Below are positions 2,045 to 63,465 of a DNA stretch of 64,000 nucleotides, piece after piece. The position numbers and the translations under genes are program-made. Source of the stretch: Ulota crispa. Its lineage: Eukaryota > Streptophyta > Bryopsida > Orthotrichales > Orthotrichaceae. The DNA lies in NCBI GenBank assembly GCA_963920765.1, contig OY987243.1, forward strand, positions 15,996,001 through 16,060,000. Direction: 5' to 3'. Numbering within the stretch: the stretch's first letter is position 1; each line of letters starts with the position of its first letter. Under the pieces are notes generated by a model. The model worked only from the letters and a program-made list of their open reading frames with translations. It did not search any database and was not told the origin of the DNA.

Positions 2045-2247
2045 TTTATAAAAAGGCTTTGATGTTGTGTATTAAAACAAGTTGATTATTCATTAAATAT
2101 AATCATCTACATAAATTGTAAGTATGATAAAATTGTTATTAGCTTCTTGTTTAATACATATACTTGCATGGAATTTTAATGTTTAAAATTTGCAAAAGAG
2201 AAAATATTGGTCTAGTCATTGATACCTTGAAACCCAATATTCATTAA

Positions 2248-3165
2248 CCCCTAAAGGACCAACTATCTGTTCAACGGACAAATGGGATTTTGGGCATGTA
2301 CCTATGGCCAAACTACTTTGCATGATTTTTTGAAACTTTTACTAAAGATAGGGAATTCAAAGATCTGCGTGGGCATCTAATTTTTATTCCAATTGATGGC
2401 AAGGAGCAAAAGTTATGCCCAAATAAGCACAAATTTGGGGACACTGGGCAGCAAAAAAATTCTTATAAAAACTTGAAAAACCAAATTAATTAATTTTTTC
2501 TCATAGATTATATCTTTGTTTACATCTGAAGCTTTGATTCATTCCATTTGGACTAGTTATGAGAAAGTTATGGACAATCTTGTTTTTCGAGCAACTCAAG
2601 CATCTTCTTGAAACAATAACTTATAAACTTCATTTTTGAATGCAGGTTTAACATTAAAAAAAAAAAAAATTGTTGGAAAGGGTGAAGTTTGCTTTCTAGA
2701 ACAATCTCACCATTGGGATTATCACATTTCAATTCCATTGCAGAATTATTAGCGATTTAAGTTTTTGTTCAATCTCATACCTTCTTCCACCTAATGATTT
2801 TTTAAAGAATGAAAATTAAATATATATATTTTTAAAATTCCTAAGATTCCCAACTCAACTTCCCACCATGTAGAAATAGAATTCCAAACTCTATGGTGCA
2901 AAAATTTTAAGTTAAAAAAGTTCAAAGTTAAATAATCTAGTCATGCAAGGTGCAAAATAAGCTATTTTTTACTTTTTAAATGCATATATCTTCCAATCTA
3001 TGCAATCAAAGTTCTTGAGTTTTGTATGACACATTCTTATAGTAGTCTAGTACAAGATACTATGGTTAGATATGCAGAAAGACCAAATTTCAAACTTTTT
3101 TTACTCTTTGCCATAGAGGTAGCAGTTTTGGGTGTCACAAAATAAAGGCCATGGTCCTTTAGGGG
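2248..3165. mobile_element. TTAA-flanked MITE, family A copy 1 (918 bp)
   Basis: The ends are CCCCTAAAGGACC and GGTCCTTTAGGGG, bounded by TTAA at 2244-2247 and 3166-3169. It lies inside the copia fossil. It shares its interior with the copies at 39563, 44550 and 48675 but is clearly more diverged, and it keeps a GATCTGCGTGGGCATCTAAT stretch that links family A to family B. No coding capacity. The TTAA target and CCC start are the pattern known for piggyBac; the assignment is inference from ends alone. Confidence 0.8.
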
Positions 3166-3559
3166 TTAAAATGAGAGTTTTCTACTGAAATGAGAGGTCC
3201 TAGTATCTCCTTTTCATTTTTTTGAGAGATTCTCATGAATTTGAGAGGTAATTTGATTGAAATTTTAAAGAAACATGACCTAAAATTCAAAGGTATTAGG
3301 TCGATTCAGCTCAATTTGAGCTAAACTTGAAACGTATTAGGTCGATTCAACCTCAAATTGAAAGGTTTTAGGTAAGTTTAGCTTGATTTGAGTTAAATGG
3401 TCAGATTCATATTCTCATTTCAATGAAAAGTCTCATATTAATGAAAATTGATGTTTTTAGTTGAACTTTAACCTAAATCAATATGATTATTTTGAGATAT
3501 CTAGAAACCTTCAATATTATGAATATTGTTATGATGGTAAAGACTGTTGAAGTCCACAT

Positions 3560-4690
3560 AATAACTTGCAAAGATTACAAACCAGATTTAAACTTAAAGA
3601 TATTGCAAACCTTTAGGTGTAGATACATAAATGTTTTTTTAATGAATCCATTTTAAAATGCAGTTGAGCATCTAATAGATAGATTTTGAAATTGTATTGA
3701 GTGGCAAGGGCAAGTAATACTTTGATAGAATCTAACTTAGCAACAAGAGAAAAATTTCATGTAGTCAATTCCTTGTATTTGAATAAAACTCTGTGGCACT
3801 AAAAGTGCTTTGTACTTGTCTAAAGTTCCATCAGCCTTAGTTTTAATTTTAAATATCCGTTTGTAACTAACAGATTTTCAATTTGATGGTAGAGGTGTGA
3901 GCAACCAAGTTTTATTCTTGTCTAAAGAATGAAATTCAACTTGAATGAATTTTTGCCATCATTCAAAATCAAATCTAGCTCATGCTTTTTGCATAGTTTG
4001 AGGTGGGTCTAATAAAATTTAAACCACATTAGCATGATTATTTGTTTTAGAGTTGGACCTTTTTGTGGATGTTTGTCCAGCACTTCATTTAAGTAATTGT
4101 CATGTAGATTTTATTTGTCTTGAAGGTCTAGCTAAAGATCTTGGAGGTGCATATCTTAGAAGTAGAAGTAACTTTGAGTTTATAAGGTAAATTTGCATCA
4201 ATCAAATTTGAACATGAAAGTATGTGACGTGGGCTATTTCTAATAGTACTCAATGAATCATTTTTATTTGGTTGATTAATTTAATGTCATTGAATTGACA
4301 AATATGGATTTTGTCAACTCCACTCACTTTGTTGTATGAAAATTTGTTCGTGTAAATTTGATTAAATAGGAAGCTGAAGCATCTTTTGAGTTGGTGGTAA
4401 ATCATTGTGATGATTGCTTATAATAGGTGATGTTTTAAAGAAAGTAGGATTTATTAAACTTGTTGTTTTAGTTAGCACTTCTTCTTGTGATAGATGTTGC
4501 TCAAGGATCTTTACAAGAACTTCATCAAAAATAACATCTCTAGATATTATGGATTTTTGGGTTTTCTTATTAATTCAAAACATCTTACATGCATTTTTTA
4601 AATTATTTTTTGTATTTCAAACTAATCTACTACAACATTTTTATTTTAAAATCATTTCAAGTAAGTACAAATCATATGGAAGGACACTCT
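3560..4690 (-). pseudogene. Copia reverse transcriptase remnant
   Basis: The minus strand reads ISRDVIFDE near 4500-4550 (the conserved copia integrase/RT linker) and, further downstream, KRIFKIKTKADGTLDKYKA and GIDYMKFFS.VAKLDSI, matching the copia RT entry region. It is a fossil. The integrase part that should precede it resumes only at about 9480, so a block of about 4.8 kb separates the two. Confidence 0.75.
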
Positions 4691-5449
4691 AAGGGAATAT
4701 TGGTAATTTTTTTTTGTTTCCAATTTTTTTTTTTATGCGGTTGTTTTTTTTCCAAACTTATGAATTTTGAAAGTTGTATATTTAATCTTCTTTCCTTGTG
4801 ATTTTTATCTATCAAAATTATGATTTATAAATTTTTAAAGAAACTTGTATGCTTCAATTGGTGGTTGATTTAACAATCTATAATAATACAGAGGGAGAGT
4901 GGTATTAGGGATAATTGTATATTTAGTATTTTTTCTTTGTGATTGTCATCTTCTAAATTTTTTTGATAGGTAGAGGCTTCTATTAATGAGTACCTAATTC
5001 TAAATTGTTCCCTTTTAAATTTTTTTTATATGTAGGGAATCTAAAATTTTGTCCACAATTTATTTTTGGTGATAATTGTCTAAACTATTTTGATAGGTAG
5101 AGTTCTAAATTTTATTTCATGTTGTTTTTTATTTAACAATCAATGATTGTGCTAAAAAAAGTCATAGCTAGGGATTCCAAAATAATTCAATATCTTTCTC
5201 GAAATTTTTAATGAGTATTTGCTAGATATCTAAAAATTTTCAATTTTGTTTTGCTTGAGTATTGGTTGGTTCTTTATGTGTGTTTTTTTTAATTTTTTAA
5301 TTTCCACTCTTGTAGACTAGATATTCTAGAAAATGGTTTATTTAAATTTTTATAACTTTTGGAACTACTTTAGATTTTAAATTGAATAAAAAATGAAGAA
5401 AGTACTTTAAAAAGACTAAAATTAGCTTTAAAATAAAAAGTAGCTTAAA

Positions 5450-5590
5450 GTAAAAGTAAAAGTATATGATAGGTCACATCCTTTTGGAAAGGATGCAACC
5501 TTTCAAAGTAAGTACTATAAATAGAAGTAAAAAACTTGTGAAAAATGGCAATAATATAAGACCCATTTATTATTAATGCTATTATAGTGT
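5450..5590 (+). promoter_or_regulatory. TATA box, probably LTR-derived
   Basis: CTATAAATAG at about 5517-5526 is a canonical plant TATA box. It sits in a segment with an AGGTCACATCC..GGATGCAACC palindrome upstream, an arrangement common in plant LTR promoters. No gene follows, so a solo or fragmentary LTR is the best guess. Confidence 0.35.
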
Positions 5591-6890: not shown

Positions 6891-7108
6891 ACAAATAAAA
6901 ATTAGATTATATTGTTGTGATCAATACAATACAAGGTATTTTTCTTGTATTTGGAATAGAGCTCCACCTTTATTACATTTAAGGTCAACAAAAGAGTTGA
7001 CATTTAGATCAATGTGGTCCTAGTAAACTATTAATAATCCCAAATTAAAGTTCATTGCTGGTACTAAATGATAATTATACAATACTATACCTTATGAATG
7101 TTTAAGGG
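6891..7108. mobile_element. Family E TTAA element, copy 3, left end unclear
   Basis: The interior (Y-rich, with TTTGTATTTGGA and TTTATTACATTTRAGRTCAACA) matches the short element at 15424-15657. The right end TTTAAGGG is followed by TTAA at 7109-7112. The left terminus has decayed and the start given is approximate. Confidence 0.55.
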
Positions 7109-8520: not shown

Positions 8521-8540
8521 TTTGATTTGAGATTTTTCAG

Positions 8541-8544
<4 letters not shown>

Positions 8545-8639
<95 letters not shown>

Positions 8640-9465: not shown

Positions 9466-9479
9466 ATTGGTTAGACATT

Positions 9480-10745
9480 CAAAAACTAATTTTTGACATT
9501 CAACTCAAGGAAAAAGTGGGCATTTTTTTATAAGGATAGATGATAAGTTTTAGCATCTTCATTACAACTCAAGAAAATTGCTTCATTTGAGTAAGAGTCT
9601 AATTTTGTCTTTGTTCTTTAGGAATAAGAACATAAGTTTTACATCAAAAATCTTTAGATAAGATATATTGGGTTGCCAACCATGTCATAATTCAAATGGA
9701 GTAGTATTTGATAATATAGCTTTGTGGTAAGACTTCTATTTTGGAGATAAGTAGCAATATGAAGTGCTTCTTCTCAAAATATGTTGGTAAATTTGCATAA
9801 GATAACATGAAAAGAATTACTTCCACTAATGTTTTATTTTTACGTTTTCACTCTCCATTTTATTGGAGTGTGTAGGTAGCAGTCACCTCTTGTTGAATGC
9901 CTTGTTCTTGAAAAATGTTGAAAACTCATTAAATGATACTTACCACTTGAGTTAGTTTGTAATATTTTGATCATGCCATGTGTTTGTTTTTCTACATAGT
10001 TTTTATAAAGATGAAATTTTGTAGATGTTTCATATTTATGTTCTATTAAATAAACATGACATAATATAGATCAATTATCAATAAATGTGATGAAATAAAG
10101 ATATCTCAAATATATTTCAAATTGCACAGGTTGTTTGAATGAATTAACTCTAATGTTCAGTAGCTTGTCTTGTTCCTTGTTTAGGAAATTTTTCTTTGCA
10201 ATGCTTGCTTTTTATGCAAGATTGAAATAAAGTAATTTGTTTTTCATCAATAGAGTCTATTTAAACAATTTGTATTTGTTTGAGTCTTTGTTGATTATAG
10301 GCCTAGTCTTAAATGCCATAAATCAACTTTATTTAATTTTGTAGTGGTTGGCGTTGTTAAAACATATTGCATAGATGTGATTGTTTTGCCTAACGCATAC
10401 AAATTTGGATGAAGTTTACATGTAGTAATGGTGTGACTCAATTTAGTAATTGGATTCACAAGCTTTTATATGGATTTCTCCACCTGCCTTGTCAAGTTCT
10501 TTTGCTAAAAACAAATTCTTTGCAAGGCCATGTATATGCAAAACATCAAATATGGATTTTTCATTGCCATTTGATAATTATATATTTACATCACCATATC
10601 CTTGCAGGGTATATGAAGTAGAGTCATCACCTAGATAGACTACTTGTTTATTACTGCATTTAATGTAATTTACAAATTGTATAATGCCTAGTTGGGTTTT
10701 TAAGTAAAATTTCAATGAATAGGTGTTCTTTTCCTACTTTTGAGC
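9480..10745 (-). pseudogene. Copia integrase and protease-integrase linker remnant
   Basis: The minus strand shows YDMVGNPIYLI near 9660-9700, GIQQEVTATYTPIKW near 9860-9900 (the conserved integrase segment around the catalytic Glu), and VYLGDDSTSYTLQGYGDVNI followed by DVLHIHGLAKNLFL near 10500-10640 (the GDG..I.G.G.V..DVL..P....NL block). It is a fossil and not intact. Confidence 0.8.
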
Positions 10746-10749
10746 AGTT

Positions 10750-15423: not shown

Positions 15424-15657
15424 CCCCTAAAGAACAAGGCAGCCCTTTGTGACTAATACAATATGGTGTATTTTTTTTGTATTTGGAGTGCATCCACACC
15501 TTTATTACATTTGAGATCAACAAAGAAGTTAGAATATAGATCAATGTTATTCTAGTCAGGTAGTCAAGATCCCAAATTAAAACTTTTTGTTGGTAACAAA
15601 TGCCAGTTATACAGCAGCATACATAGTATGAATTATATTAGCCTCGTCATTTAGGGG
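15424..15657. mobile_element. TTAA-flanked MITE, family E copy 1 (234 bp)
   Basis: It begins CCCCTAAAGAACAAGG and ends CATTTAGGGG, with TTAA at 15420-15423 and 15658-15661. It is the best-bounded member of a short subfamily also seen at 6891-7108 and 63122-63340. Confidence 0.8.
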
Positions 15658-16341: not shown

Positions 16342-17858
16342 TGTCATGATGTAAATTACAGCATTTGATAAAAATAAAAAAAGTCATTCAATTATAGTAT
16401 GTGTGAGGTGTTGTACTCTTTTTCCTTCATCCGCAATTTTGTCCTTGTTTAATAAGGTTTTCTCGAATAAAGTTTTGAAGAGACAACAACCATAGTTTTC
16501 TATAGTAAAGAGATTCCAAGAACCAATAATAGAGAGTAACTTTTACCTTGGAGTTATTTTTATTTAAAGTAACTCAATGACCAATAGTAGAGAAGGACTT
16601 TTACTTTATGTCTTCTCTCTTTAGTATATAAGTGGAAACCTACTTGAGAAAAGATGAGATGTTTTTCATAATATATTTTACATACTCCATATCTTACTCT
16701 TCTTCTTGCATATTTTTGTTCTTTTATCTTCTTGCAGCTTTGATTTATAGAGCAAATTTATATTACATGATATCTTTCCATCTATTGATATGAGATAGGT
16801 TGCAACTAGAATTCCAATGATTTCTCAAGGCAAACTCCTCTCTACTTGACATTTGGTGCTTCCATTGAGAGAGCTTTGGAGCAGCTTATTTTATTTTGAT
16901 GAGATGGAGGATACTGCATATTTGATACTTACAAGTTTTAATTTGATTTTGAGTCTTCTGTTGACAAGCATGAAAGGTGAATTGGGAGGATTTTGATCTT
17001 GGATGCAAAAATCAAGCTTCAATAACAGAGATTCTGGAGTAATTCCAAGACGGATTTCCATAGCTTAATAGTGATGTCAAGAAGATGAAAATGCAAATGA
17101 AGACCAAATCAAAACCATATTTATTGCTTACAAGCTTTTAGTTTATATTTAGTTTTCAATTGACATGCATGAAAGGTGAATTCAAAAGATCAAGATCTTA
17201 GATGCTAAATCAAGTTTCAATGAATGGAGCTCTAGGTATACCAAGATGGATTTCTATAAGTTTAATAGTGATGTCATGAAGAAAAAATGCAACTGCATGC
17301 TCTGATAGCTATAGTAAAAACATTTGATAATTATATGATAAAAAAATGAAGAATATTTTGATTTGAAAAAAAAGAGGAAGAAAACTGAAGGTTAGCACAT
17401 ATCAAAGGATGTGGAGGTCTGGAGGAGATGGATGTTGTGATGTAAATCACGGCATATGATAAAAATAAAAAAAGTCATTCAATTATAGTATGTGTGAGGT
17501 GTTGTACTCTTTTTCCTTCATCCGCAATTTTGTCCTTGTTTAATAAGGTTTTCTCGGATAAAGTTTTGATGAGACAACAACCATAGTTTTCTATAGTAAA
17601 GAGATTCCAAGAACCAATAATAGAGAGTAACTTTTACCTTGGAGTTATTTTTATTTAAAGTAACTCAATGACCAATAGTAGAGAAGGACTTTTACTTTAT
17701 GTCTTCTCTCTTTAGTATATAAGTGGAAACCTACTTGAGAAAAGATGAGATGTTTTTCATAATATATTTTACATACTCCATATCTTACTCTTCTTCTTGC
17801 ATATTTTTGTTCTTTTATCTTCTTGCAGCTTTGATTTATAGAGCAAAATTATATTACA
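16342..17858 (+). mobile_element. Small non-autonomous LTR element (TRIM-like)
   Basis: Two direct LTRs of 426 bp (16342-16767 and 17433-17858) differ at only about eight positions, start TGT and end TTACA, and flank a 665-bp interior with no pol. A purine-rich tract lies just before the second LTR. The sequence after each LTR is TGRTATC, resembling the start of a copia-type primer-binding site. The homology continues about 80 bp past the second LTR (to about 17938), so a leader follows both LTRs, as in a tandem or recombined arrangement. Non-coding and fairly young by LTR similarity. Confidence 0.8.
16920..17290 (+). repeat. Internal direct duplication in the small LTR element
   Basis: Two diverged copies of about 160 bp share TTACAAGYTTTWA, GCATGAAAGGTGAATT and TTTAATAGTGATGTCA. 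They make up most of the element's interior. Confidence 0.65.
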
Positions 17859-17939
17859 TGGTATCTTTCCATCTGTTGATATGAGATAGGTTGTAGCTAG
17901 AATTCCAATGATTTCTCAAGGCAAACTCCTCTCTACTCA

Positions 17940-18230
17940 ACACCATCACCACTGATTGTAGCTTGCTTAAACTGTTCTAGGAAAGTTGGTTGGAGAGCAT
18001 TAATTCTTTTTGGTTGTTGGCTGGAGTTGAACTTGCTAAAGGGGGGCAAGTTGAAGCCTGGCCAACCGAAGGAGGGGAGGTCCGGGTATCTTCAGGTCTA
18101 GGTACCAGTAGGTTCAGGTATTGCTGGTCTGGGCCGCTGGGACAAGGGAGAGCCGTCGCAAGTGGAGTGACTGCCGAAGCAGGACCTGCTGTAGCTAAGA
18201 GGAAGGATCTGAGGTGGTTGTGGCTGGAAG
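17940..18230 (+). other. GC-rich unassigned segment
   Basis: It is richer in G and C than its surroundings and leads into the minisatellite. An open frame (17990-18268) crosses it but has no recognisable domain and runs into repeat units, so I do not call a gene. Confidence 0.35.
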
Positions 18231-19140
18231 AATTCTCGAGGGAACGCTGGCTCGACTGGGGAATTTAAGGGATTACTGGCTAAATTAAGGAGTTTTTGAG
18301 AGAATGCTGGCTAGACAGAGGAATTCTCAAGAGAGAATGCTGTGCTAGACTAAGAGTAATGCTGAACTAGACTGAGGATTCTTGAGAGAATGCTATGCTA
18401 GATTGAGAGATTTGTGAGAGAATGCTGTGCTAGACTAAGAGATTCTTGAGGGTAATGCTGGCTAGACTGGGGAATTTGAGGGGATGTCGGCTAGAATGAA
18501 GAGTTCTTGAGAGAATGTTGAGCTAGACTGAGGATTCTCGAGAGGATGCTGAGCTAGATTGAGGATTCTTGAGCAAATGCTGTGCTAGATTGAGAGTTTC
18601 TTGAGAGCATGCTGGCTAGAGTGGGGAATTTGAGGGAACATTGGCTAGATTGAGGAGTTCTCAAGAGAATGCTAGCTAGACTGGGGAATTTGAGGGGATG
18701 TTGGCTAGACTGGGAAATTTGAGGGGACATTGGCTAGACTAAGGAGTTCTCGAGAGAATGCTGAGCTAGAGTGGGGAATTTGAGGGGACGTTGGCTAGAC
18801 TTAGGAGTTCTCGAGAGAATGCTGAGCTAGAGTGAGGATGCTGAGCTAGATTGAGGATGGTGAGCTAGACTAAAGGTTCTCGAGAGAATGCTGTGCTAGA
18901 CTAGAGATTCTCAAGAGAATGCTGTGCTAGGCCGAGAGGGTCCCGAGAGAATGCTGTGCTAGGTCAAGAGGCTCTTGAGAGAGAATGCTGAGCTAGACTA
19001 AGAGATTCTTGAGAGGAATGCCGGCTAGATTGAAGATCCTTGAGGGAACGTTGGCTAAGCCAAGGTTGTAGTGGCTGAGAGAGCAAAACTTGAGCTAGGC
19101 GGTGATTGAGGGATCCTAGAGGGAATGCTAGCTAGGTTGT
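18230..19140 (+). repeat. Long minisatellite, GAGAATGCTG(A/G)GCTAGACTGAGG units
   Basis: More than twenty imperfect units of about 30-45 bp combine TTCTCGAGAGAATGCTG, GCTAGACTGAGGA and GGGGAATTTGAGGGGA. The units vary in order and length, suggesting repeated slippage or unequal exchange. Confidence 0.85.
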
Positions 19141-21888: not shown

Positions 21889-21929
21889 TTATTTAGTGGT
21901 GACTTGTTGTCGAATTGAGAGGAGCATAC

Positions 21930-22600
21930 TTTGGAAACACGCATGGTGTCTTACTGCAATCGTGTGTTGCTGACTAAAATCGTCTTTGATCTTGATCTTT
22001 ACTCTTCAAATCTTCAATCTTTAGTCTTCTGTTGGCCTATTTTGTGGCTGACTCTAGGGATACAAGGGTCAAGGTAGGAATAAGAGCCTACTGGGTACAG
22101 GACAAGTAGATTGGGACAGCAGACACGAGCTGCCATTCATATGACGGGATCCTAAATTCAAATTCACGATCTGCTGGCCAAAATTCCAGATCGTGAGAAC
22201 AAAGCAAGCCTCGATCATATGGGTGATCAATCTCACTTTGTCACCACGACAATAAATATGGTTAAATTTGGTTTAACCAAAACTACCCGCAACAAGGTTT
22301 ACAAAATATAATGGAAATGAATTGACAAACAAGCCTCCAAAACCTGCTAGGAATAACAAAGCCATTCCCATACACACATAAACAATAAACCCAAAACATT
22401 TCTCTTGAAATCTTTGTATCTTCAAATCTTCAAGTCTTCATGTTTTAATAAAAAAACAATGGGAAAAATCACAAATAACAAGTTATAGAAAGACTGCAAC
22501 TTTCTATCTAGTGCCACAAATGGCTCAAGGATCCAAATGCTAAGTGTAATAGCAATTTGAAAAGCTTTTTTAATTTTTTAACGATTCTTCAAATTTCAAC
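21930..22600. other. Unassigned DNA
   Basis: Mixed sequence with runs such as TCTTCAAATCTTCAATCTTTAGTCTTC. No gene or element ends recognised. Confidence 0.4.
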
Positions 22601-23420
22601 TCAATCTAAGGTACTATCCAAAAGTTATGCGAGTTCAAAGTAGAGGCTCTTCTTCCTTCTTGCAAACTAAACACTGCCTTTATAAACCTTTATAACTTTT
22701 GTTCTATACATTATCTATAGAAACATGATATCAATTTGGAAAAATGATACTATTGGGTACAATCCATAAAAATTTTACTTCAAAACAAAATTATGTCCAT
22801 AAGTTCTAGTCAATCAAAGTGTAGGTCTCAATTTTTTAGAGAGCACCCAAATCTCCAACTTCTACACACTACAACTTCTTCAATAAAACTCCAAATTGAA
22901 TGATTGAAAACAATTTAAAAAGCTATGACAATAAACTATCATTTCTAAAATTTTGAAAAGAAAATTTCATACTGTCTAAAAATTGTAGCTCGTCAAAATT
23001 TTGGCCTTCTCATAACAAAAGGGCAACCACTTCTAATCCTTCACACCTCCATAATTTTCTCTTCTAAGTTTCAAATCTTGAGTTCAAAGGTTTTTTAGAG
23101 AGCTAAGACTAAGATAAATATTCTTTTCAAATCTTGTTGTAAAATGATATACAGATTATAAGCTATGATTTGTCAAAATCTCAGCCTTTCTTCATAGTTT
23201 GGCTTCTTTACTCTAAAATTCAAACACTCATAACTTTTGCATCACAACTCCAAATCAAACTTGTAAATTCATTTAGGAAAGGTAATCACACAAGAAACAA
23301 TTTCTTTAAATGTCAATTCAAAATCATGTATATACAAAAAAATCTCTCCCATCAAAGTTTTGGAAATTTTTTTTTCTTTTCACTAACACTCATACATTAA
23401 CTTCCAACAACTAAAGAATC
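22600..23420 (+). repeat. Degenerate tandem repeat, about 200 bp period
   Basis: Variants of CTCATAACTTTTGCATCACAACTCCAAATCAAACTTG and of GTCAAAATTTTGGCCTTCTTCATA alternate three to four times. This kind of sequence is seen in untranslated parts of large plant LTR elements, but no coding remnant lies next to it here. Confidence 0.45.
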
Positions 23421-23714
23421 TCTCCTCCTTAATTTCAACCCTATTTAAAGTAGTGAGGTGGAGCACATCAGCCCATGTCCCTCTCTATCCTAATCCCACC
23501 ATAGATGCCAATCCCCTTTTTCTTTCACACTTTTTCCATTCACTTCTAAATCCTTAATATTTTTTATTCAAATAAAGGCAAAATATGTGAGCCTTCCAAA
23601 ACATCTAGATAAACATATAAAAATGATTAAATTACAAAATAAATACCATTGTAAAGTAACCATGTGCCTTTGCGGGCATATAATAACGTCAAATGTTTGT
23701 CTTCAGTCGCCAAG

Positions 23715-23960
23715 TTGTGGACTACATTGGCTGGAGAAGCGGTCATCTCTAGCCGCCCGTTGGTCCGGGTTCGAACTCCATCGGACTCGTTGAGCGATGA
23801 TGGCGGCCTATAGCTTGGCAGCTAGTGAGGCAAGAAATTAGCCCAGCTAATCCGCTACCTACCCCCCTAAATTGTGCATGTAACAAGACGGCGCAGTACA
23901 CTGGAATCTATGGTCGTTGTGCTGTTACCAAACCGTGATTTTCACCACGACTACCCTTTT
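23715..23960 (+). repeat. tRNA-derived SINE
   Basis: A pol III A box (GGCTGGAGAAGCGG, about 23729-23742) and a near-perfect B box (GGTTCGAACTCC, 23768-23779) stand about 26 bp apart, as in tRNA genes. A tRNA-unrelated body follows and ends CGACTACCCTTTTT near 23960. Head plus body plus T-run fits a SINE, not a tRNA gene, because the 3' side does not pair into an acceptor stem. Target duplications were not identified. Confidence 0.65.
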
Positions 23961-24059
23961 TGTCACAACTGTTGATTTATTGAAATCAACACAAACGTAA
24001 ATAAATAACGAATATTTATATGATGGAGATATCTTCATCAAGACATTGTTTTGGGATCA

Positions 24060-26846: not shown

Positions 26847-26849
26847 TAA

Positions 26850-27406: not shown

Positions 27407-27563
27407 TAAGAGTAGAAGCATCTTCATCATGAAATAAAGAGGAGGTGATGGAGAGAAGGGGAGGAATATAACAAGAAGTGTCAGCACATTGTGTGTTGTC
27501 GGCCTATTTTTTTGTGATGATGCATCCACCAACCTTTTAGTGCAGTGTTTGTTTTTAGGTACT

Positions 27564-33213: not shown

Positions 33214-33364
33214 CACTACAAGGGAAATTGTCCAAAATGACAAAAATATGTCCAAATCAACATGGTTGAATGTACATAGATTGTCCAATTTGACAGTCTT
33301 TTTGTCCTTTTGGACACATTTAGTCAATTCAAACGTGTCAATTAGGACACAATTTCTTGTAGTG
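33214..33364. mobile_element. CACTA MITE (151 bp)
   Basis: Ends CACTACAAGGGAAATTGTCC and GGACACAATTTCTTGTAGTG, with target duplication ACT at 33211-33213 and 33365-33367. The interior is a GTCC/GGAC-rich palindrome. Confidence 0.9.
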
Positions 33365-39562: not shown

Positions 39563-40483
39563 CCCCTAAAGGACCATGGCCTTTATTTTGTCAAAAGACA
39601 TGCAAAACTGCCACCTCTATGGCAAAGAGTAAAAAAAGCTTGAAAATCAAGCATCTTGCATATCTGACTGTAGGATCTTGTGCTAGACTACTATAAGAAT
39701 GTGTCATACAAAACTCAAGAACTTTGACTACACAAGTTGGAAGATATTTTCATTTAAAGTGTAAAAAAAAACTTTCTTTGCACCTTGCTTGACTAGATTT
39801 TTTAACTTTGAACATTTTTAACTTAAATTGTTTTGCACCACAAAGTTTGGAATTCTATTTTTGCATGGTGGGAAGTTGAGTTGGTAATCTTGGGAGAAAC
39901 AAAACAAAAAAAGTAACTAATTTTCATTCTTTAAAAAAAACATTAGGTAGAAGAAGGTATGAGATTGAACAAAAACTTAAATTGCTAATAACCCTGCAAT
40001 GGAATTGAAATGCAATGATCCCAATGGTGAGATTGTTCTAGAAAGCAAACTTCACCCTCTCCAACAATTTTTTTTGAAAAAATGTTAAACCTGCATTCAA
40101 AAATGAAGTTTATAAGTTATTGTTTCAAGAAGATGCTTGAGTTGTCCAAAAAACAAGATTATCCATAACTTTCTCATAACTAGTCCAAATGGAACGAATC
40201 AAAGCTTCAGATGTAGAAAAAGATATAATATATAAGAAAAAAAATTAAATTTTTTTCAAGTTTTTATAAGAATTTTTTTTGCTGACCGGAGTCCCCAAAT
40301 TTGTGCTTATTTGGGCATAACTTTTGCTCCTTGGCATCAATTGGAAAAAGAATTATATTCCCCAAAAGCTAATGTGTTTTTCTATCTTCAAAAAAGTTTC
40401 AAAAAATCGTGCAAAGTAGTTTGCCATAGGTACATGCCCAAAATCCCATTTGTCCATTGAACAGATAGTTGGTCCTTTAGGGG
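39563..40483 (-). mobile_element. TTAA-flanked MITE, family A copy 2 (921 bp)
   Basis: Bounded by TTAA at 39559-39562 and 40484-40487, with intact ends CCCCTAAAGGACC and GGTCCTTTAGGGG. Orientation is opposite to copies 1 and 3. It is almost identical to the first 830 bp or so of the copy at 48675. No coding capacity. Confidence 0.9.
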
Positions 40484-40487
40484 TTAA

Positions 40488-40890
40488 CCCCCAAAGAACC
40501 AATTGTCCCTGCGAGGGACAAATGGAATTTCGGGCAGGTACTTACAACTAAACTACTTTGTATGGTTTTTTGAAATTTTTATGGAAGATGGGGATTCAAA
40601 GATCTATGTGGGCATCTTTTTTTTTTTTTTTTTCAGATTCTAACATTTATTGAAGAAGTTAAAAATGAATTTATGGAAAAAGGTTGAGCTTAGGCAGCCC
40701 AAAAAAGTATTTAAAATTTGCATTTAAAAAATAAAAGTATGAAATAGGTTCTTTATATTTATATATAGGTGGGGAGCTTTGAATCATTTGATTTTCATTA
40801 ATGAGATGAAAGTTATGAGAAATTTTTGTTTTTGGGTAGGTCTGGTTTCTCTCAAAAAAATTCATTCTCAAAGAAGGTGTGACTACTCCT
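40488..40890 (+). mobile_element. TTAA-type element, family B copy, truncated
   Basis: Starts CCCCCAAAGAACC directly after the TTAA that closes family A copy 2, then the subterminal palindrome GTCCCTGCGAGGGAC. It matches family B for about 400 bp and then loses homology; the right end is missing. It contains a long T run at about 40617-40633. Confidence 0.7.
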
Positions 40891-44549: not shown

Positions 44550-45469
44550 CCCCTAAAGGACCAACTATATGTTCAACGGACAAATGGGATTTTGGGCATG
44601 TACCTATGGCAAACTACTTTGCACGATTTTTTGAAACTTTTTTGAAGATAGAAAAACACATTAGCTTTTGGGGAATATAATTCTTTTTCCAATTGATGCC
44701 AAGGAGCAAAAGTTATGCCCAAATAAGCACAAATTTGGGGACTCCGGTCAGCAAAAAAAATTCTTATAAAAACTTGAAAAAAATTTAATTTTTTTTCTTA
44801 TATATTATATCTTTTTCTACATCTGAAGCTTTGATTTGTTCCATTTGGACTAGTTATGAGAAAGTTATGGATAATCTTGTTTTTTGGACAACTCAAGCAT
44901 CTTCTTGAAACAATAACTTATAAACTTCATTTTTGAATGCAGGTTTAACATTTTTTCAAAAAAAATTGTTGGAGAGGGTGAAGTTTGCTTTCTAGAACAA
45001 TCTCACCATTGGGATCATTGCATTTCAATTCCATTGCAGGGTTATTAGCAATTTAAGTTTTTGTTCAATCTCATACCTTCTTCTACCTAATGTTTTTTTT
45101 AAAGAATGAAAATTAGTTACTTTTTTTGTTTTGTTTCTCCCAAGATTACCAACTCAACTTCCCACCATGCAAAAATAGAATTCCAAACTTTGTGGTGCAA
45201 AACAATTTAAGTTAAAAATGTTCAAAGTTAAAAAATCTAGTCAAGCAAGGTGCAAAGAAAGTTTTTTTTTACACTTTAAATGAAAATATCTTCCAACTTG
45301 TGTAGTCAAAGTTCTTGAGTTTTGTATGACACATTCTTATAGTAGTCTAGCACAAGATCCTACAGTCAGATATGCAAGATGCTTGATTTTCAAACTTTTT
45401 TACTCTTTGCCATAGAGGTGGTAGTTTTGCATGTCTTTTGACAAAATAAAGGCCATGGTCCTTCAAGGA
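44550..45469 (+). mobile_element. TTAA-flanked MITE, family A copy 3 (920 bp)
   Basis: Left end CCCCTAAAGGACC after TTAA (44546-44549). The right end has drifted (CCTTCAAGGA) but TTAA remains at 45470-45473. Nearly identical, in opposite orientation, to the copies at 39563 and 48675. Confidence 0.88.
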
Positions 45470-48376: not shown

Positions 48377-48656
48377 TTTTCCCCTAAAGGACCAAGCAGC
48401 AATTTGACAGCCACTTGAGAACTTGGGTAGGCTCTAGGAGTCAATTTTTATTTGATTTTCTCAAAATTGTTACACAAGATGCAAATATGTACACCTTAAG
48501 TGGAAATGTAATTTTTTCCCCAATTGGACCGGTTCAAAAGTTATGTTGCCCAAAAGAAATTGGGCAGCTTGGGCATCTTTGGAGAATCTTATGCTAAAAC
48601 TCTCATCAACTTTTGAAATTTGTCAAATATAGTATATTTCTAAAAAAACATGGTGT

Positions 48657-49784
48657 ACAACATAACATTGTTAACCTCTAAAGGACCATGGCCTTTATTT
48701 TGTCAAAAGACATGCAAAACTGCCACCTCTATGGCAAAGAGTAAAAAAAGCTTGAAAATCAAGCATCTTGCATATCTGACTGTAGGATCTTGTGCTAGAC
48801 TACTATAAGAATGTGTCATACAAAACTCAAGAACTTTGACTACACAAGTTGGAAGATATTTTCATTTAAAGTGTAAAAAAAAACTTTCTTTGCACCTTGC
48901 TTGACTAGATTTTTTAACTTTGAACATTTTTAACTTAAATTGTTTTGCACCACAAAGTTTGGAATTCTATTTTTGCATGGTGGGAAGTTGAGTTGGTAAT
49001 CTTGGGAGAAACAAAACAAAAAAAGTAACTAATTTTCATTCTTTAAAAAAAACATTAGGTAGAAGAAGGTATGAGATTGAACAAAAACTTAAATTGCTAA
49101 TAACCCTGCAATGGAATTGAAATGCAATGATCCCAATGGTGAGATTGTTCTAGAAAGCAAACTTCACCCTCTCCAACAATTTTTTTTGAAAAAATGTTAA
49201 ACCTGCATTCAAAAATGAAGTTTATAAGTTATTGTTTCAAGAAGATGCTTGAGTTGTCCAAAAAACAAGATTATCCATAACTTTCTCATAACTAGTCCAA
49301 ATGGAACGAATCAAAGCTTCAGATGTAGAAAAAGATATAATATATAAGAAAAAAAATTAAATTTTTTTCAAGTTTTTATAAGAATTTTTTTTGCTGACCG
49401 GAGTCCCCAAATTTGTGCTTATTTGGGCATAACTTTTGCTCCTTAGCATCAATTGGAAAAGAATCATATTCCCCAAAAGCTAATGTGTTTTTCTATCTTC
49501 AAAAAAAGTTTTAAAAAATTAGGACAAAAATTGAGGCCGTAGGTACTTGTCAGAATTCCCATTTGTCCCTTGTAGGGACAACGGTCCTTTAGGGGTTAAG
49601 CCGGTTTGATTCCTCCCCCCAGCTGTGGAGGAATATGCCTCCCCATATACCCGGGGGAGGTTTTAGTTATAATTTCTCAAAGCTCATTGGTCTTGGGACA
49701 GAGCTGACAAATGACATTGGCTGGGGGATCCTCATTTTTGGGGAGCAAAAGGGACCCCTCTAGTGAAGGTTAACAATGTTATGA
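48657..49784 (+). mobile_element. MITE family G copy 2, carrying family A copy 4
   Basis: Outer ends CATAACATTGTTAA and TTAACAATGTTATG form an inverted pair. The right part (49600-49784) matches 41500-41671. The family A insert uses the TTAA in the left end. The outermost few bases are approximate. Confidence 0.65.
48675..49595 (-). mobile_element. TTAA-flanked MITE, family A copy 4 (921 bp)
   Basis: TTAA at 48671-48674 and 49596-49599. It is almost identical to copy 2 (39563) until about 49510. The last 85 bp are a different sequence with the family B-like subterminal palindrome GTCCCTTGTAGGGAC, suggesting an exchanged end. Confidence 0.9.
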
Positions 49785-50449
49785 ATTGTCAAAAAAAAAA
49801 AAAAAACTCTCACATCATATTTTGAAGGGAGTCAAATTTTGATAACTATGTTTGGGCAGTTTCAAGAAAAATAAAAATCCTCTAGCTTCAAGCCCTATTA
49901 TCTTTCAATCTATAAATCCAAAGCTCTTGAAACTATTTTTCATATGTTTCAAATGTTTGTCTCTAGTTTTTCACCATTCAGATTTCAAATAAAAGACTTC
50001 CCATTGCACAAGAAATCATGAAAGAATGACTAATGTATTGCCACTTTGCTTAACCTCTATGCATTGCAGGATGATTTAGAACAAGCTAGATTGTGTTTTT
50101 GCATCTGAAAATTTTCATGAGTGAACTTAACATCATATACTTGTGAATGGTCAAAAAGCTCAAATTTGTGTAGAGCAAAAACTTTACTCTAGGAAGGGTC
50201 AAAGTCTGCTGACCTTATTTTGCAAGAATAAAAAAAAGTAGTTTTCTCACTTCAAACATTATAATCTTACAATCCACATGGTCAAATGGGCTGAATTTTT
50301 TTGCACATATTATTTTATTTATTTTGCACACTTTTGTACGGTTGAAATTGAGAAAAAATTGTTCTAATTTTAATTTTGGACAATGCACTAAAAATTAACA
50401 ATTTCTGAGATTTTTTCTCAAAAAACACCCTTGATCCTTTAGGGGTTAA

Positions 50450-50856: not shown

Positions 50857-51808
50857 TCCCTAAAGGACCAAGTGGCTGTTCAACAGTCACTTGAGAACTT
50901 GGGTAGGGTCATATGGAGTTAATTTTTATTTGAATTCTCAAAATTGTTACACAAGGTGCAAATATGTATCTTGTAAGTGGAGATGTAAATTTTTCCCAAT
51001 TTGGATGCCTGGTTCAAAAATCATGTTACCCAAAATAATTTGGGTAGCTCGGGCAGTTTGGGTATCTTTGGAGAATCTTATGCTAAAACTTTCATCAACT
51101 TTTGAAATTTGGCATGTATGTAACTAAAAATCACATTGAACAATTGTCAAAAAAAAAAAAATTTGAACTCTCACATCACATTTTGAAGAGAGTCAAACTT
51201 TGTTAACTATGTTTGGGTAGTTTCAAGAAAAAAAGAATTCTCTAACTTTAGGCCCTAGTATCTTTCAATCTATAAATCCAAAACTCTTGAAACTTTTTTT
51301 CACATATTCCAAATGATTGTCCCTAACTTCTCGCCATTGAGATTTCAAACAAAAGACTTCCTTATTGCATAAGAAATCATGAAAGAATGGCTAATGTGTT
51401 GCCAATTCACTAAACCTCCTTGCACTACAAGGTGATTTAGAATAAGTTAGATTTTATCTTTACATCTGAAAATTTTCATGAGTGAACCTAACAACATATA
51501 CTTGTGCATGGTCAAAAAGCTCAAATTTGTGTAGAGTAAGAATTTTACTCTAGGAAAGCTCAAAGTCTGCTAACCTTGTTTTGCAGGAATGAAAAAAAGC
51601 TATTTTTCTCACTTCAAATGTTATAACCTTACAAACCACAAAGTCAAATGGGCTGAATTTTTTTGCATGTATTAGCTTATCTATTTGACACATTTTTGTA
51701 CAATTGGAATTGAGAAAATAGGTTTCTATTTTGAATTTTGGGCAATGCACTAAAAGTTGGCCGTTTCTGAGATTTTTTTCTCAAAAAATACCCTTGGTCC
51801 TTTAGGGG
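50857..51808 (+). mobile_element. TTAA-type element, family C copy 2 (952 bp)
   Basis: Begins TCCCTAAAGGACC after TCAA (50853-50856) and ends GGTCCTTTAGGGG before TTAA (51809-51812). A subterminal palindrome AGTGGCTGTTCAACAGTCACT sits just inside the left end. This uninterrupted copy is the reference for family C. No coding capacity. Confidence 0.85.
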
Positions 51809-56229: not shown

Positions 56230-56232
56230 TAA

Positions 56233-56790
56233 GAGTGGCTTAACACTATGATCAGTCAAGTCGAGAGGCTGTGGGATTGAGTGGCTAAACTTTGGAGAGA
56301 GGCCAACAAAATAAGCTGAAAATAGGTATTAAATTATAAATTTTTGACACCTTTGGCCGCCCTTAGTGTGAAGCCTCCAAAGGCCAAGTCCAAAGGCCAC
56401 ACTCTTGGCAATGACCTTCCACGGACTCTCAACTTGAATGGCCATAGTGTGAAGCCTCCAAAAGCCAAGCCCAAAGTCCAAAGTCATAGCATTTATTAGA
56501 CCTCCCAAATCCAATGGCCAAGATCTTGTAAGCTTTTGATTATTTTATGAAAACAACGTGACGGCCTCTCAACCATAGTTTGGGTCTCCATTTTTGCTTG
56601 ACCCAAATTATTGCCGCAAGGCCGTCAACCTTGGATGATAAAGTGCTGCCATGTAGACATTTGGAGGATGATGGCCTTTGGAGTTTGGCCCCTAGTGTGA
56701 AGGGTTGAGTGGCCGGACTCTCGGTTTCTTGCAATTTGCTTGGCGCAAACCAACGGCCTCTTGACCTTCAGCTATAGTGTGAAGCCGCCC
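56233..56790. mobile_element. PIF/Harbinger-like MITE, family F copy 2 (558 bp)
   Basis: Ends GAGTGGCTTAACACTATG and CTATAGTGTGAAGCCGCCC, flanked by TAA (56230-56232, 56791-56793). Strongly similar to 26850-27406 throughout. Confidence 0.82.
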
Positions 56791-56989
56791 TAAGTTTAGT
56801 GAGTTCTAACTTTTTCTCTACTTCTTCTACACTTGATGATAGGTCAAATAGCTTTTTGTGGGACCAAACAACTATTTGTGGAATACACTTGAAGAGTAAA
56901 GATGGGGGACAAGAGTTTTGAGGGCTCTCCAAAAGCAGATGGAAACACTTGGCAAGTCATGGATTGAGTGCAAGGGTGCGGATGCTCTA

Positions 56990-58706: not shown

Positions 58707-60876
58707 CCCCTAAAGGATCAAGTGTCCCTTTCACAGCACTTGAGAATTTGGGTAAGGTTATCCAAAGTCAATTTCTTGGGGGCTCACACCTCTTTATGAT
58801 TGGATACCACTTGTGATAATGGGGTAATTAAATGGGAGGTATTTAGATCCTTTAAGGTAAATTTTTCCTCCCTTTTTTTAAATAAAAAACTACTTTAGAG
58901 TATTTTAGGGTACCCTATGCTTATTTCTAAATGGTTATATGACCTAATTTTTCAAACCCTACTTTTTTTGCAAATGCAGAAGTATCATAAGAAAATGTTA
59001 TGTGTATACAATGGGTTATAGAAGACTTTGACCTGCAAGAAGATAGTGTAAGAATTTAACACATAGCAAGTCCTTCAAATCATACTTACAAAGTTGCCTT
59101 CCTAAACCCTAATCTATTCTTAAAAATTCCGATAACCCTCAACCACATGCATACTCAAAAAACGGCAAATGACAAGCTTTGAAGTACTAAATCCTAAATT
59201 GGAGAAGAAAAGAGGAAAGGAAGAAAATCGGGTAGATCAAGACGGCATGTTAGTCTAAGCGTGAACCCAAGCTCTTATTATCGAGAATTGCAGAAAAAAC
59301 TGAGTGGTAATGTTGACATCTACCATCGTCGTTGGCAAAAGAAGATAAGAAATCCAACCCTAAATGCAAACTCCACTAAGCTCCCATTCCCTCGCTTGCA
59401 AGTACAGCGCTGTGAGTAAAATTCTGTAAAGAGGATGAGAAGTTTCAATTGCACAACACCCACGTTGCCACTTTCAGCGTGCTCAGATAATCCGGGGAGA
59501 GAAAAATTGCAAACTACAAGAAAGTAATCTCAAATTTGAGAATCCTAAGTGCTAGCAAGAGCAACGGTAGTAGCATAACGGCATGTAAAGAATCCAATGT
59601 GCTTGCCAGCACAAACCCTACTCTTGAGATTCCACAACAATGCTAGCCTTTGCCAGCATGCTTGACCCTTTTTCATTTACCCTATAGCCTGTTGCTAAAC
59701 CCTAAATCGTTACAATCCAAAACTTGGACAAAAAAATCCATTTTTCATCCATATTGCTCATGAACTCTAAACCTTACACTCATCCTACTAAACTATTTTA
59801 GGATAATCTTATAATTTCCACTTTTTTTTTCTACAATATTCTAAAATGGAGGATTATACACCACCCTATTTTACATATAATGAAGCAAGACATATTTTTC
59901 TGATGCTATGATAAATCTAAAAAAGATATAAAATTTATCTCCAATGATTAAAATTGACCCTATTTTTTATCTCACGTAGTTTACTAAAAATTGGAGAGTA
60001 ACCCCCCAAGGTCAATTTTTATTGAATGTTCTCAAAGTTATTACACAAGGTGTAAACATGTATTCTTTAAGTGGAAATGTAATTTTCCTCCAATCCAATG
60101 CCCGGTTCAAAAGTTATGTTGCCTAATAGAATTTGGGTAGTTTAGGTATCTTTGGAGAATCTTATGCTAAAACTCTCATCAACTTTTGAAATTTGTTATG
60201 TATGTAACTAATAAAATACAATATACAATTGTTAAAAAGAAAGAAAAAAAGCTTGCACATTACATTCTAAGAAGAGTCTAAATTTGTTCACTATGTCAAG
60301 GCATTTTCAAGAAAAAATATATTCTTCTAACTTTGGGCCCTATTATCTTTCTATCTATAAACTCAAAGCTCCTAAATTATCTTTTACATATTCTAAATGT
60401 TTGTCTTTAACTTTTCATTGTTCAAATTTCAAATAAAAGACTTCCTCAATGCAAAAGAAATCACAAAAGAATGAGTAATGTATTGCCAATTCATTGAACC
60501 TCCTTGCAATGCAAGATGATTTAGAACAAGCTAGATCCTATATTTGCTTTTGAAAATTTTCATGAATTGATCAACATCATGTACTTATAAATGATCAAAA
60601 CGCTCATTTTTGTGTAAAGTATTTTAATCCAAGACTCAAAATCTATTGACCTTATTTTGCAAGAATGAAAAAAGTTATTTTTCACTTCAAACATTATAAT
60701 CTTACAATCCACACAATCAAATGAGATAATTTTTTTGCACACATTGAATTATTTTTTAACACAATTTTGTAAGGTTAAAACTTAGAAAAAGTTTTCATTT
60801 TCAATTTTGGAGAATGCATTGAAAGTTGACAGTTTTTGATATTTTTTCTCAAAAAACACCCTTGGTCCTTTAGGGG
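58707..60876 (+). mobile_element. TTAA-type element, family C copy 3, interrupted
   Basis: Begins CCCCTAAAGGATC after TTGA (58703-58706) and ends GGTCCTTTAGGGG before TTGA (60877-60880). The identical non-canonical 4-mer on both sides argues for a true target duplication. Removing the hAT-like insert (1236 bp plus 8 bp) leaves 926 bp, close to the 952 bp of copy 2. Confidence 0.85.
58775..60010. mobile_element. hAT-like non-autonomous element (1236 bp)
   Basis: Short inverted ends CTTGGGGG and CCCCCCAAG, with the perfect 8-bp duplication GTCAATTT at 58767-58774 and 60011-60018. It sits in family C copy 3. The interior is richer in unique sequence than the other MITEs (about 59030-59700, including AACCCTAA-type phrases) and could include a captured gene piece, but I recognise no exon or hAT transposase. 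Confidence 0.75.
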
Positions 60877-61275
60877 TTGAAGTTGTAATGGTCATGTTTG
60901 TTATTTTATTTTGCTCACTTTTGGTGAGCCAAATGAACAGTTTGAATGTGAAGAATTGGAACTTTCAAATATTAATCCCTAAAGGACCATTGTCCCTCAG
61001 GGGACAAATGGGATTTCAGGCATGTACCTATGGTTAAACTACTTTGTTTGATTTTTTGAAACTTTTATTGAAGGTGAAGAATTCAAAGATTTACGTGAGA
61101 ATGTAATTTTTCCCTCATTCTGACAATTATTGAAGAAGTTATGCATGAAAATATCAAATATTGGGGAGGAGGGGCAGGCTAGGCAGCACCCTTCTAGTGT
61201 ACTTGAGAGTTGACTAGAACTATGGGCAGCTAGGAAGGGCAGGGATAGCAGTAGTAGTGGGTAGATTTTTGACAA

Positions 61276-61542
61276 GGTCCATTTTCACCCCCCAGCCTGA
61301 CATCCCGAGTTTAGTGGGAGTGGAGGAGGCAAAAGAATTTCAGAGCTATGTTATGATAAACACCTGGTAGTTTTCTTGCAAACTGCACGGAAGTGACGGA
61401 ACTTTCTTTGGGCCCACCTTGGCATACAAAGTTTTTATGCGCACTGAAGCACTTATTTAGGATCTCCAATGTAGGCAGTGTTGTAGTAATTGGAAAACTG
61501 GAGCCTGTGGGGCCTGGCAGAAGTCGGGGGTGGAATGGACCC
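61276..61542. mobile_element. MITE inside family B copy 2 (267 bp)
   Basis: GGTCCATTTTCACCCCCCAG on the left mirrors GGGGGTGGAATGGACC on the right. It is GC-rich compared with its host and accounts exactly for the extra length of the host copy. No clear target duplication. Confidence 0.65.
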
Positions 61543-61595
61543 AGTCCAGGGTTGAAGACACCCACCATTCTACTTGCCCCATGGCAAATTTTATA

Positions 61596-61612
61596 TATAT
61601 ATATATATAGTG
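61596..61612. repeat. Short (TA)n run followed by poly(T)
   Basis: TATATATATATATATAT within family B copy 2, with a T run at about 61624-61640. Confidence 0.85.
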
Positions 61613-62348
61613 GATTGTACTTGATTTTTTTTTTTTTTTTCGAGAGTTGTAATTTTGTAGTATGACTATCTTCTCACCAATTGGATTTATGTAAAACATT
61701 TTTTTGGTCTTTTCACATAGCTTCCAATATTCCCTAGTGTAATTGCAAATTTCATGACCTTCTGTCATTGCAAAATTTTAGAAAGTATGCTAAACACCTC
61801 CAATTCATTTGAAAATTCTCGCACACATACCTAACTTGGTCTTCTACATGGGAAAAATAAACCTCAACTTTGTGTACAATACTTTTTTTGATATGACAAT
61901 GGTCAAAGGCTTCTAAATTTTTTGGGCAATAGGGAAAAAAACTTTTGATTTCACTTTAGATGTAAATATCTCACTCATCACCATCTAGAATGAGCTAAAA
62001 AAATTTCCACATGTACCTCCCATAGTCTAGGACAAGATCTTATGGTTGGATTTCCAAAAAAATAATAATAATAACATTTCTACTTACTCCCCCAAAAGTG
62101 ACATGAGTGATTTTTCACAAAAAAAAAAAGGGGGGGCTTGATCCTGTAGGGGTTAAGAGTTCTCCAGTTGCCTTCCTGAAATCCGAGAGTTAAATTTGAA
62201 ATCTCAAATAAGAAAATACCGAGTTGTACAGTACATATGAGTCCTTCTTCCTAAACCTCTCACTTCAAGATGGACAGCCCGAATAACTGCGGCTACTTAT
62301 TCAGAATGGTAGTATTTCTATGGTAAATTTCTCTTTCTTAACCCTTAA

Positions 62349-63117
62349 CCCCTAAGCGTCTTGGTAGGAAATTTCAGCATATTTTCAAAATGAAACCTTC
62401 AACACATTTCCTTAGTTTTTGGAAAGTTGAATAAGTAATCACATAATCCAAACTGGTTATTCTATACCCAACTATAAATCAAATGTTTTAAACCAGTTTG
62501 ATTTCAAATCCAAGTAAATTTGCAAAATTCTCACCGTTGAGAATCTCATGTTTTCTGATTTGGGCAATAGTTCAAAATATGGATTTTGGACTTTCATGTA
62601 ATATTTTCTCAAAAAAAAGATTTACCTAATGGCTGATCCCATGAGATTGTGTCTTGCTATACTTGATGGAAAAAAAAACTCCACAAATGGATAAAAACCC
62701 CTAAAGATATGATCACTCAAAGTAGCTAGATTCCACTAGCTCCTTACATTAAAGCTATAAAAACCTTGGCCAAACCAAGAAAAAAAAAGTGACACATCAC
62801 CAAACTTCTCCCTTGAACAATACAAGACATGAGAGCACCCATCCCATCTGTTCTCTAAACTGCTCCCTTTGTTTGCCCAAAGACATTCTTCTCCTAATTG
62901 TTAAAAAAAAAAGAATATTTTCCATATTCCATATAGAATCTAGAGCAAAGGAGGCACTTCAAGGAACAACAAGCCGATCAAAAAAAATTCTTGAACTAAC
63001 GACTCCATTTGGACTTGAGTTGCAAACCAAATTTTGAGCTAAAAATGCCTCTTTTGTATTCTTTCACACCTCCAAGCACCCCATTTGGCCATATTGGGCT
63101 CTTTGGTCCTTTAGGGG
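62349..63117. mobile_element. TTAA-type MITE, family D (769 bp)
   Basis: Left end CCCCTAAGCGTCTTGG after TTAA (62345-62348), right end GGTCCTTTAGGGG before TTGA (63118-63121). The two ends differ more than in families A to C. No coding capacity. Confidence 0.65.
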
Positions 63118-63121
63118 TTGA

Positions 63122-63340
63122 ACAACCATAGGGAATAGTATATACTCTGACGTATAATTGTCATTTGCTACCAATAAACTTTTTTAATTTGGGATCTCAA
63201 GTAGCTCACTAGAATTGCATTAATCTATTTTTCAACTTTTTTGTTGGTCTCAAATGTAGTAGAGGTGTGAGTCTATTCCAAATACAAGAAAAACATCCCG
63301 TATTGTATTGGTCGCAAAGGGCCTTTCGATAGTTTAAGGG
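63122..63340 (-). mobile_element. TTAA-type MITE, family E copy 2 (219 bp)
   Basis: Starts directly at the TTGA closing family D and ends TTTAAGGG before TTAA (63341-63344). The interior is the reverse complement of 15424-15657. Confidence 0.65.
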
Positions 63341-63465
63341 TTAAGAGTGCAATATTAGGGACACTTTAACTGTAGGAGTAGAGGCCATAAAAATTGGTTC
63401 ATTTCAACAAAAATTTCAACTCAAACTGCCTCAAGAAAAACTTAGAGCTAATTATAATAAGAGTA

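Follow-up and report, generated by a model that had tools for sequence, protein, structure and literature searches.

The 64,000-base stretch of contig OY987243.1 analysed here (positions 15,996,001 to 16,060,000; hereafter the window) is rich in short repeats that in all likelihood are non-autonomous miniature inverted-repeat transposable elements (MITEs) of the piggyBac superfamily, resident in a moss and moved in trans by DDE_Tnp_1_7 transposases. A preliminary description, made from the letters alone, had proposed at least ten piggyBac-like elements with mirrored ends and TTAA at their borders. We found ten with TTAA or a one-base variant at both flanks, and two further copies that are interrupted or composite. 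Their ends run CCCC...GGGG, their 4-bp target is duplicated, empty sites can be found, and longer relatives in the genome that carry a transposase have ends of the same kind; the duplication, the empty sites and a relative bearing PF13843 all support the proposed piggyBac interpretation. The superfamily itself is known. Here it is present in very many copies, in a group of hosts for which we found nothing beyond annotation-level mentions.

The ends are far more frequent than expected. With at most one mismatch, CCCCTAAAGG occurs 22 times in the window compared to 2.7 expected occurrences and a maximum of 6 among 100 shuffles. With at most three mismatches, TTAACCCCTAAAGG occurs 33 times (8.3 expected, shuffle maximum 16), and eight of the window's ends match it exactly. 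The MITE end CCCCTAAAGGACCA forms a 14 bp terminal inverted repeat (TIR) and agrees with the piggyBac hallmark of 12-19 bp TIRs with a CC[C/T]T motif given in the excerpt of PMC2872659. The genome searched comprises 274.8 Mb on 157 contigs, of which C1 to C11 are the large ones (41.4 to 6.3 Mb); seven of the later contigs that we inspected measure 16-112 kb. Exact TTAACCCCTAAAGG was observed 15,411 times (7,719 + 7,692 by strand), and the reversed pattern that served as a control once (1 + 0). This amounts to about one exact end per 18 kb, roughly half the density found in the window. Sequence related to 38 query elements, ten of which came from the window, accounts for 11,440 of the 64,000 window bases (17.9%). 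Because of the window's richness in exact ends, a rough extrapolation puts the share of the whole genome lower, at more like 8%.

piggyBac transposases in the genome

The profile PF13843 (piggyBac transposase, DDE_Tnp_1_7) gave 120 matches in the genome, spread over all of C1 to C11 with a best E value of 1.3e-73, and matched none of the 14 control genomes. We scored 116 places out of 527 first-look candidates and read ten of these 116. No internal stop was present in ten of the 120 matches. When six stretches from the transposase loci were compared with Pfam, four of them, from three loci, matched PF13843 and two matched nothing. With phmmer, the copies at loci L030 and L029 matched PDB 6x67 ('Transposase', E values 4e-20 and 8e-20), which we take to be T. 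ni piggyBac, and PDB 9c0f ('piggyBat transposase', 6e-17 and 3e-24). In an alignment of nine transposase domains the copies shared 28-67% of their residues. The first aspartate of the D-D-D triad is found in 9/9 copies, the second in 8/9 (N in L035) and the third in seven of the eight copies that cover it (N in L030; L031 is uncovered); their catalytic roles are presumably those known from T. ni piggyBac. A cysteine-rich stretch, which may correspond to the cysteine-rich C-terminal domain of piggyBac transposases, lies on the C-terminal side of the transposase in one copy (L038:2046-2513, minus strand), past an in-frame stop; it was recognised by eye and without a profile.

Ends of the transposase-bearing elements

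Both ends were read for three transposase elements, E38, E37 and E32. The ends were identified by comparing locus against locus and extending four loci; an inverted-repeat search of four transposase loci gave nothing useful, and TTAACCCCTAAAGG with at most three mismatches bracketed no transposase within ~2.2 kb on each side of the first ten loci.

E38 (C5:10867270-10873007, 5,738 bp, PF13843 inside) has TTAA directly outside CCCCTAAATGCC at both sides. Its ends read CCCCTAAATGCCTAAGG and CCCCTAAATGCCTAAAG, and CCCCTAAATGCCTAA is present at both. It is a full-length relative with a DDE_Tnp_1_7 match, and it shares long terminal homology with a MITE: the 923-bp copy L022:3895-4817 matches the E38 ends over 554 bp (86%) and 142 bp (73%). 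As this MITE matched the L038 locus on both sides of the transposase, it predicted the position of the missing left end, and in the 421 bases fetched after that prediction TTAA followed by CCCCTAAATGCCTAAGG stood at the expected position. The window element F (32540-33572 in window coordinates, which we use for all window features; plus strand, 1,033 bp, diverged ends, TTAA at 32536-32539 and 33573-33576) also matches both E38 ends (73.8% over 595 and 66.4% over 143). Judged by these alignments, element F looks like an internal-deletion derivative of an E38-like element, and the L022 MITE looks like a deletion derivative of a transposase-bearing relative.

The loci L037 and L032 were extended 5' by ~4 kb before their ends were compared. 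E37 (locus L037, 5,648 bp, flanks TTAA/TCAA) contains a transposase and adjoins a C-type MITE. E32 (locus L032, 7,081 bp, flanks TTAA/TTAA) includes a 2.1-kb repeat. Similarity between the two begins at TTAA followed by CCCATTAAGGAYC in both and, at the other side, breaks off no more than two bases from the element ends. The window stretch 21905-24049 (~2.1 kb) matches a stretch inside E32 at 82% and belongs to another repeat family.

A fourth element, at C6:14250317-14255832, is bracketed by position only: the 17-mer TTAACCCATTAAGGACC at C6:14250317 (+) and C6:14255816 (-) encloses the PF13843 match C6:14253071-14254207. For E30 the right end alone was located (9819-9835), and the candidate ends near L031, L034, L035 and L036 are single and delimit no bounded element. 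Across the genome we counted TTAACCCCTAAATGCCYAAGG 2,291 times and TTAACCCATTAAGGAYC 53 times. Ends of the CCCATTAAGGACC family occur inverted and ~410 bp apart at C1:36756906-36757316 and C9:15547480-15547889 (positions only). The CCCATTAAGGACC transposase lineage seems to have short MITEs of its own.

We could show long terminal matches with a transposase copy only for the CCCCTAAATGCC subfamily, represented by the L022 MITE and element F. For the families A to E the similar ends and the shared target point to piggyBac; for A, B, C and the element 60976-62152 their weak similarity to one another (58-62% over 270-540 bp) would add to this link. Eleven ends at transposase loci have 10-14 of 17 bases in common with the MITE end. 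At least 11 of 17 bases agreed at 11 of 408 TTAA sites in the real loci (some may be MITEs) compared to 13 of 9,639 in shuffled loci. As these ends were chosen by that very similarity, it constitutes support and not proof.

Sola3 is a further superfamily with a TTAA target, and one could suppose that the A, B and C MITEs were moved by Kolobok or Sola3 and that piggyBac moves the CCCCTAAATGCC lineage only. We consider this very improbable, although Kolobok likewise generates TTAA duplications (excerpt of PMC9587614) and no transposase copy in the loci that we read matches A, B or C over an extended stretch. According to the same excerpt Kolobok ends are of the form 5'-RR and YY-3', whereas the window ends begin with CCC, close to the piggyBac CC[C/T]T motif (PMC2872659, excerpt), and the MITE consensus end agrees in 14 of 17 bases both with the right end of E37 and with the left end of E38. 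Among plants, the excerpt of PMC9587614 lists Kolobok from chlorophytes and rhodophytes only. Kolobok itself was rejected on account of the CCCC...GGGG ends. A relative encoding a transposase other than piggyBac, named in the preliminary description as an outcome that would speak against it, was not seen; Kolobok and Sola transposases were not searched for.

Host and origin of the elements

On C4, an exon encoding the LEAFY C-domain agrees in 102 of 104 residues with PDB 4bhk ('FLORICAULA/LEAFY HOMOLOG 1', 238 bits), which we take to be a Physcomitrella (moss) protein. Its score against PDB 2vy1 ('PROTEIN LEAFY'), presumably the Arabidopsis protein, was lower with 169 bits. On the basis of this match we took the host to be a moss. 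Together with the plant telomere repeat (CCCTAAA)n at the start of C2 (15 contig starts were read, of which five read N), the exon bears out the land-plant host assumed at the outset.

The piggyBac elements could nevertheless be foreign, through contamination or one recent horizontal transfer. This would concern their origin and is compatible with their being MITEs moved by piggyBac transposases. That piggyBac is little recorded for land plants in our searches of the openly licensed literature speaks for a foreign source. However, PF13843 matches occur on each of the eleven large contigs, the nine transposase domains have just 28-67% of their residues in common, E37 adjoins a C-type MITE and E32 contains a repeat that is also present in the window. 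We therefore give a foreign source slightly less credence still than Kolobok or Sola3. An old horizontal origin is possible. As a wider view, piggyBac may have resided in mosses for a long time, diversified there and stayed active until recently, with several transposase lineages (28-40% amino acid identity between them) that each spawned MITE families; it would then be a major class of DNA transposons of this genome, largely undescribed in land plants; we hold this to be a serious possibility, falling somewhat short of an even chance.

Target site and its duplication

Among the 8,876 CCCCTAAAGGACCA ends in the genome, 7,555 (85%) are directly preceded by TTAA, as expected from the proposed target that includes the outer T and A. 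Single-base variants of TTAA were counted 305 times at position -4, 288 times at -3, 177 times at -2 and 257 times at -1. Conservation is thus comparable across the four positions and slightly lower at the outer two. Upstream of 125 ends in the fetched sample, which had been selected around such ends, there is no strong preference at -5 to -8, and positions -9 to -12 are A/T-biased with a T frequency of 0.53 at -11.

The off-consensus sites are the most informative. Using the 361 of the 1,027 variant ends for which positions were listed, we formed pairs of opposite ends separated by 100-2,500 bp. In 13 of the 21 resulting pairs the same 4-mer stood at both ends as a direct repeat, none showed an inverted repeat and eight showed neither, compared to 2.7 expected direct repeats and a maximum of 9 in 10,000 random draws. 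The 4-mers were TTAG/TTAG (8), CTAA/CTAA (3) and TTAT/TTAT (2), and two of the 13 pairs have one left end in common, which leaves 12 distinct left ends. These paired repeats are 4-bp target duplications, which are impossible with a TA-only target, and the claim that the outer bases belong to the target holds.

For the empty-site comparison 36 of 37 elements were testable against the fetched DNA, and for four of these we found a relative of the flanks without gap or interruption. In the closest relative a single TTAA stands at the site for L013:2826, L014:581 (24/24 bases alike) and L016:1243, and CCAA for L025:2023. A duplication of only TA, the outcome that had been named as contradicting piggyBac, was not seen in this comparison. 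Among all relatives TTAA was present in 9/11, 5/5, 2/13 and 0/2 cases, respectively, from which it follows that older relatives often have an altered site. We left out of the count L010:1137 (both relatives have TTAA), L010:2999, L013:6701 (site with gaps), L020:616 (TTAT in its relatives, and too short a match on one side) and two L011 elements that matched the ends of other elements.

The least probable alternative is that these are TA-target MITEs (Tc1/mariner, Stowaway-like) with ACCCC ends and a chance preference for TTAA. Empty and occupied TTAA sites look identical under both models, so that empty sites alone do not exclude it, and across the genome variation is slightly higher at the two outer bases than at the inner TA (305 + 257 vs 288 + 177), although the fetched sample shows more variation at the inner two. 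In this model the A at -1 would be the element's own and unable to change jointly with the outer base on the opposite side, as the direct repeats show that it does, and the relatives carry PF13843. We rejected the 2-bp duplication of Tc1/mariner on the strength of the 13 off-consensus pairs.

Several observations weigh against the piggyBac interpretation. The pair counts drew on just the 361 variant ends named above, and empty sites with TTAA were found in only few relatives of L016:1243 and in neither relative of L025:2023, where CCAA stands instead. The similarity of the eleven transposase-locus ends provides no independent test. The ends of E37 and E32 (CCCATTAAGG, YCCTTTAASG) differ from the MITE consensus, and their left ends read CCCATT. 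Exact CCCCTAAAGGACCA ends were not found on any transposase copy among the ten places read and the three elements with both ends known. None of E38, E37 and E32 has remained intact: the domain contains a stop in both E32 and E38, and E37 has an open frame but also an extra stretch and a poorly aligning part after the second aspartate.

We picture the movement of the MITEs as follows. Longer elements of the same genome would encode DDE_Tnp_1_7 transposases that mobilise the MITEs in trans. The transposase would recognise short CCCYTAAAGG-like ends, cut the element out and insert it at TTAA, less often at TTAG/CTAA or TTAT, with duplication of the 4-bp target. That the A to E families were physically moved by a piggyBac transposase, and the excision chemistry, we infer. 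CCCTAAA, the unit of plant telomeres, lies within CCCCTAAAGG, so that host proteins that bind telomere repeats might touch the ends.

Relation to known systems

Most knowledge of piggyBac comes from insects and bats, and it has received little study in land plants; Wuneng and Microuli, two elements compared below, have rice as their host. The moss elements resemble T. ni piggyBac and piggyBat in the DDE_Tnp_1_7 domain with three aspartates, the 4-bp TTAA duplication and the ends starting with CCC. They differ in the moss host, in the size of the bounded elements (5.6-7.1 kb, partly through inserts) and in the >15,000 exact MITE ends. With Stowaway and Tourist they share short, non-coding sequence, high copy number and TIRs; those plant MITEs, however, have TA or TAA/TTA duplications and mariner or PIF/Harbinger transposases. 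The coral CMITEs, known together with AmiPB1, are MITEs flanked by TTAA and have 13-14 bp CC[C/T]T ends, one family being linked to a piggyBac-like element. The CMITEs are ~100 bp long, and internal to the ends their similarity is very limited (PMC2872659, excerpt), unlike the moss MITEs, which measure 0.2-1.2 kb and of which one has the 554 + 142 bp terminal homology described above.

Mentions from plants are brief in the excerpts available. PiggyBac is listed among angiosperm MITE superfamilies (PMC10004981) and in a 2024 review among plant class II superfamilies (PMC10794571), and a fern repeat table gives 1,230 copies and 122,417 bp (PMC6890710). Wuneng and Microuli are named as TTAA elements in the excerpt of PMC2872659. 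These cases share TTAA and short terminal repeats with the moss elements, or the superfamily name only, and in the excerpts no bounded transposase-coding element is described, compared to three in the moss. The word piggyBac appears once each in PMC10576809 (Oryza coarctata) and PMC6294377 (Dracaena cambodiana). A 2022 review of land-plant transposons treats six TIR superfamilies and nowhere contains the word piggyBac (PMC9033089), the excerpt of PMC10619864 contains 'piggybacking' only and no piggyBac transposon, and neither piggyBac nor TTAA occurs in PMC12550479 or PMC12595863. We found no publication on piggyBac in mosses in our searches of the openly licensed literature. The present data firmly establish a superfamily used in genome engineering in a land plant. 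Its vertical descent or horizontal transfer becomes testable across moss genomes, and the annotation of bryophyte repeats gains a concrete class to look for.

Elements and other repeats of the window

Where flanks are not specified below, TTAA stands on both sides. The A-type elements are located at 2248-3165 (+, 918 bp, non-autonomous), 39563-40483 (-, 921 bp), 44550-45469 (+, 920 bp) and 48675-49595 (-, 921 bp). The second and third are 99.0% identical over 929 bp, a similarity that suggests recent movement. The fourth is nested in a C-type element at 48381-50445 (+, TTTT left, TTAA right), which is interrupted by it and by further sequence. The uninterrupted C-type element lies at 50857-51808 (+, 952 bp, TCAA left, TTAA right). 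A 2,170-bp stretch between C-like ends at 58707-60876 (+, TTGA at both flanks) is a composite or interrupted copy with its C-like portion at 60011-60876. We further located a B-type element at 29265-30175 (+, 911 bp), an A/B-related element at 60976-62152 (+, 1,177 bp), an unstranded E-type element at 15424-15657 (234 bp) and an unstranded D-type element at 62349-63117 (769 bp, TTAA left, TTGA right). E-related copies are found at 6914-7099 (unstranded, 76-78% to the E-like stretches 15447-15613 and 63152-63317) and, adjoining the D element, at 63152-63340 (-, TTAA at 63341-63344).

Of the size classes proposed earlier, those of A (918-921 bp), D (769 bp) and E (234 bp) were recovered. B measures 911 bp instead of 910, and for C (926-953 bp) the single uninterrupted copy of 952 bp fits, but the lower value of 926 was not seen in the window. 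The five classes are not a full inventory, as element F and the 1,177-bp element at 60976-62152 fit none of them.

Back-to-back elements or ends share one TTAA/TCAA at window positions 40484-40488 and at L013:1414-1419, L022:4817-4822 and L037:5046-5051, and look as if one element had inserted into the target duplication of the other. An Rfam scan of the window gave no match, and no Pfam family was above the cut-off for six of its open reading frames. A 141-residue open reading frame at 1646-2071 (-), without a Pfam match, resembles by eye a part of a Copia-type polyprotein. A 500-bp direct repeat (16347-16846 and 17438-17937, 98% identical) lies next to a cluster of diverged repeats at ~18227-19057. 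A palindromic repeat of ~410 bp at 36971-37383, whose relatives matched in both orientations, also occurs at L019, L022 and L026, in E38 and near E37. A dispersed repeat is present at 26847-27410 and 56230-56794 with 89% identity across 565 bp.

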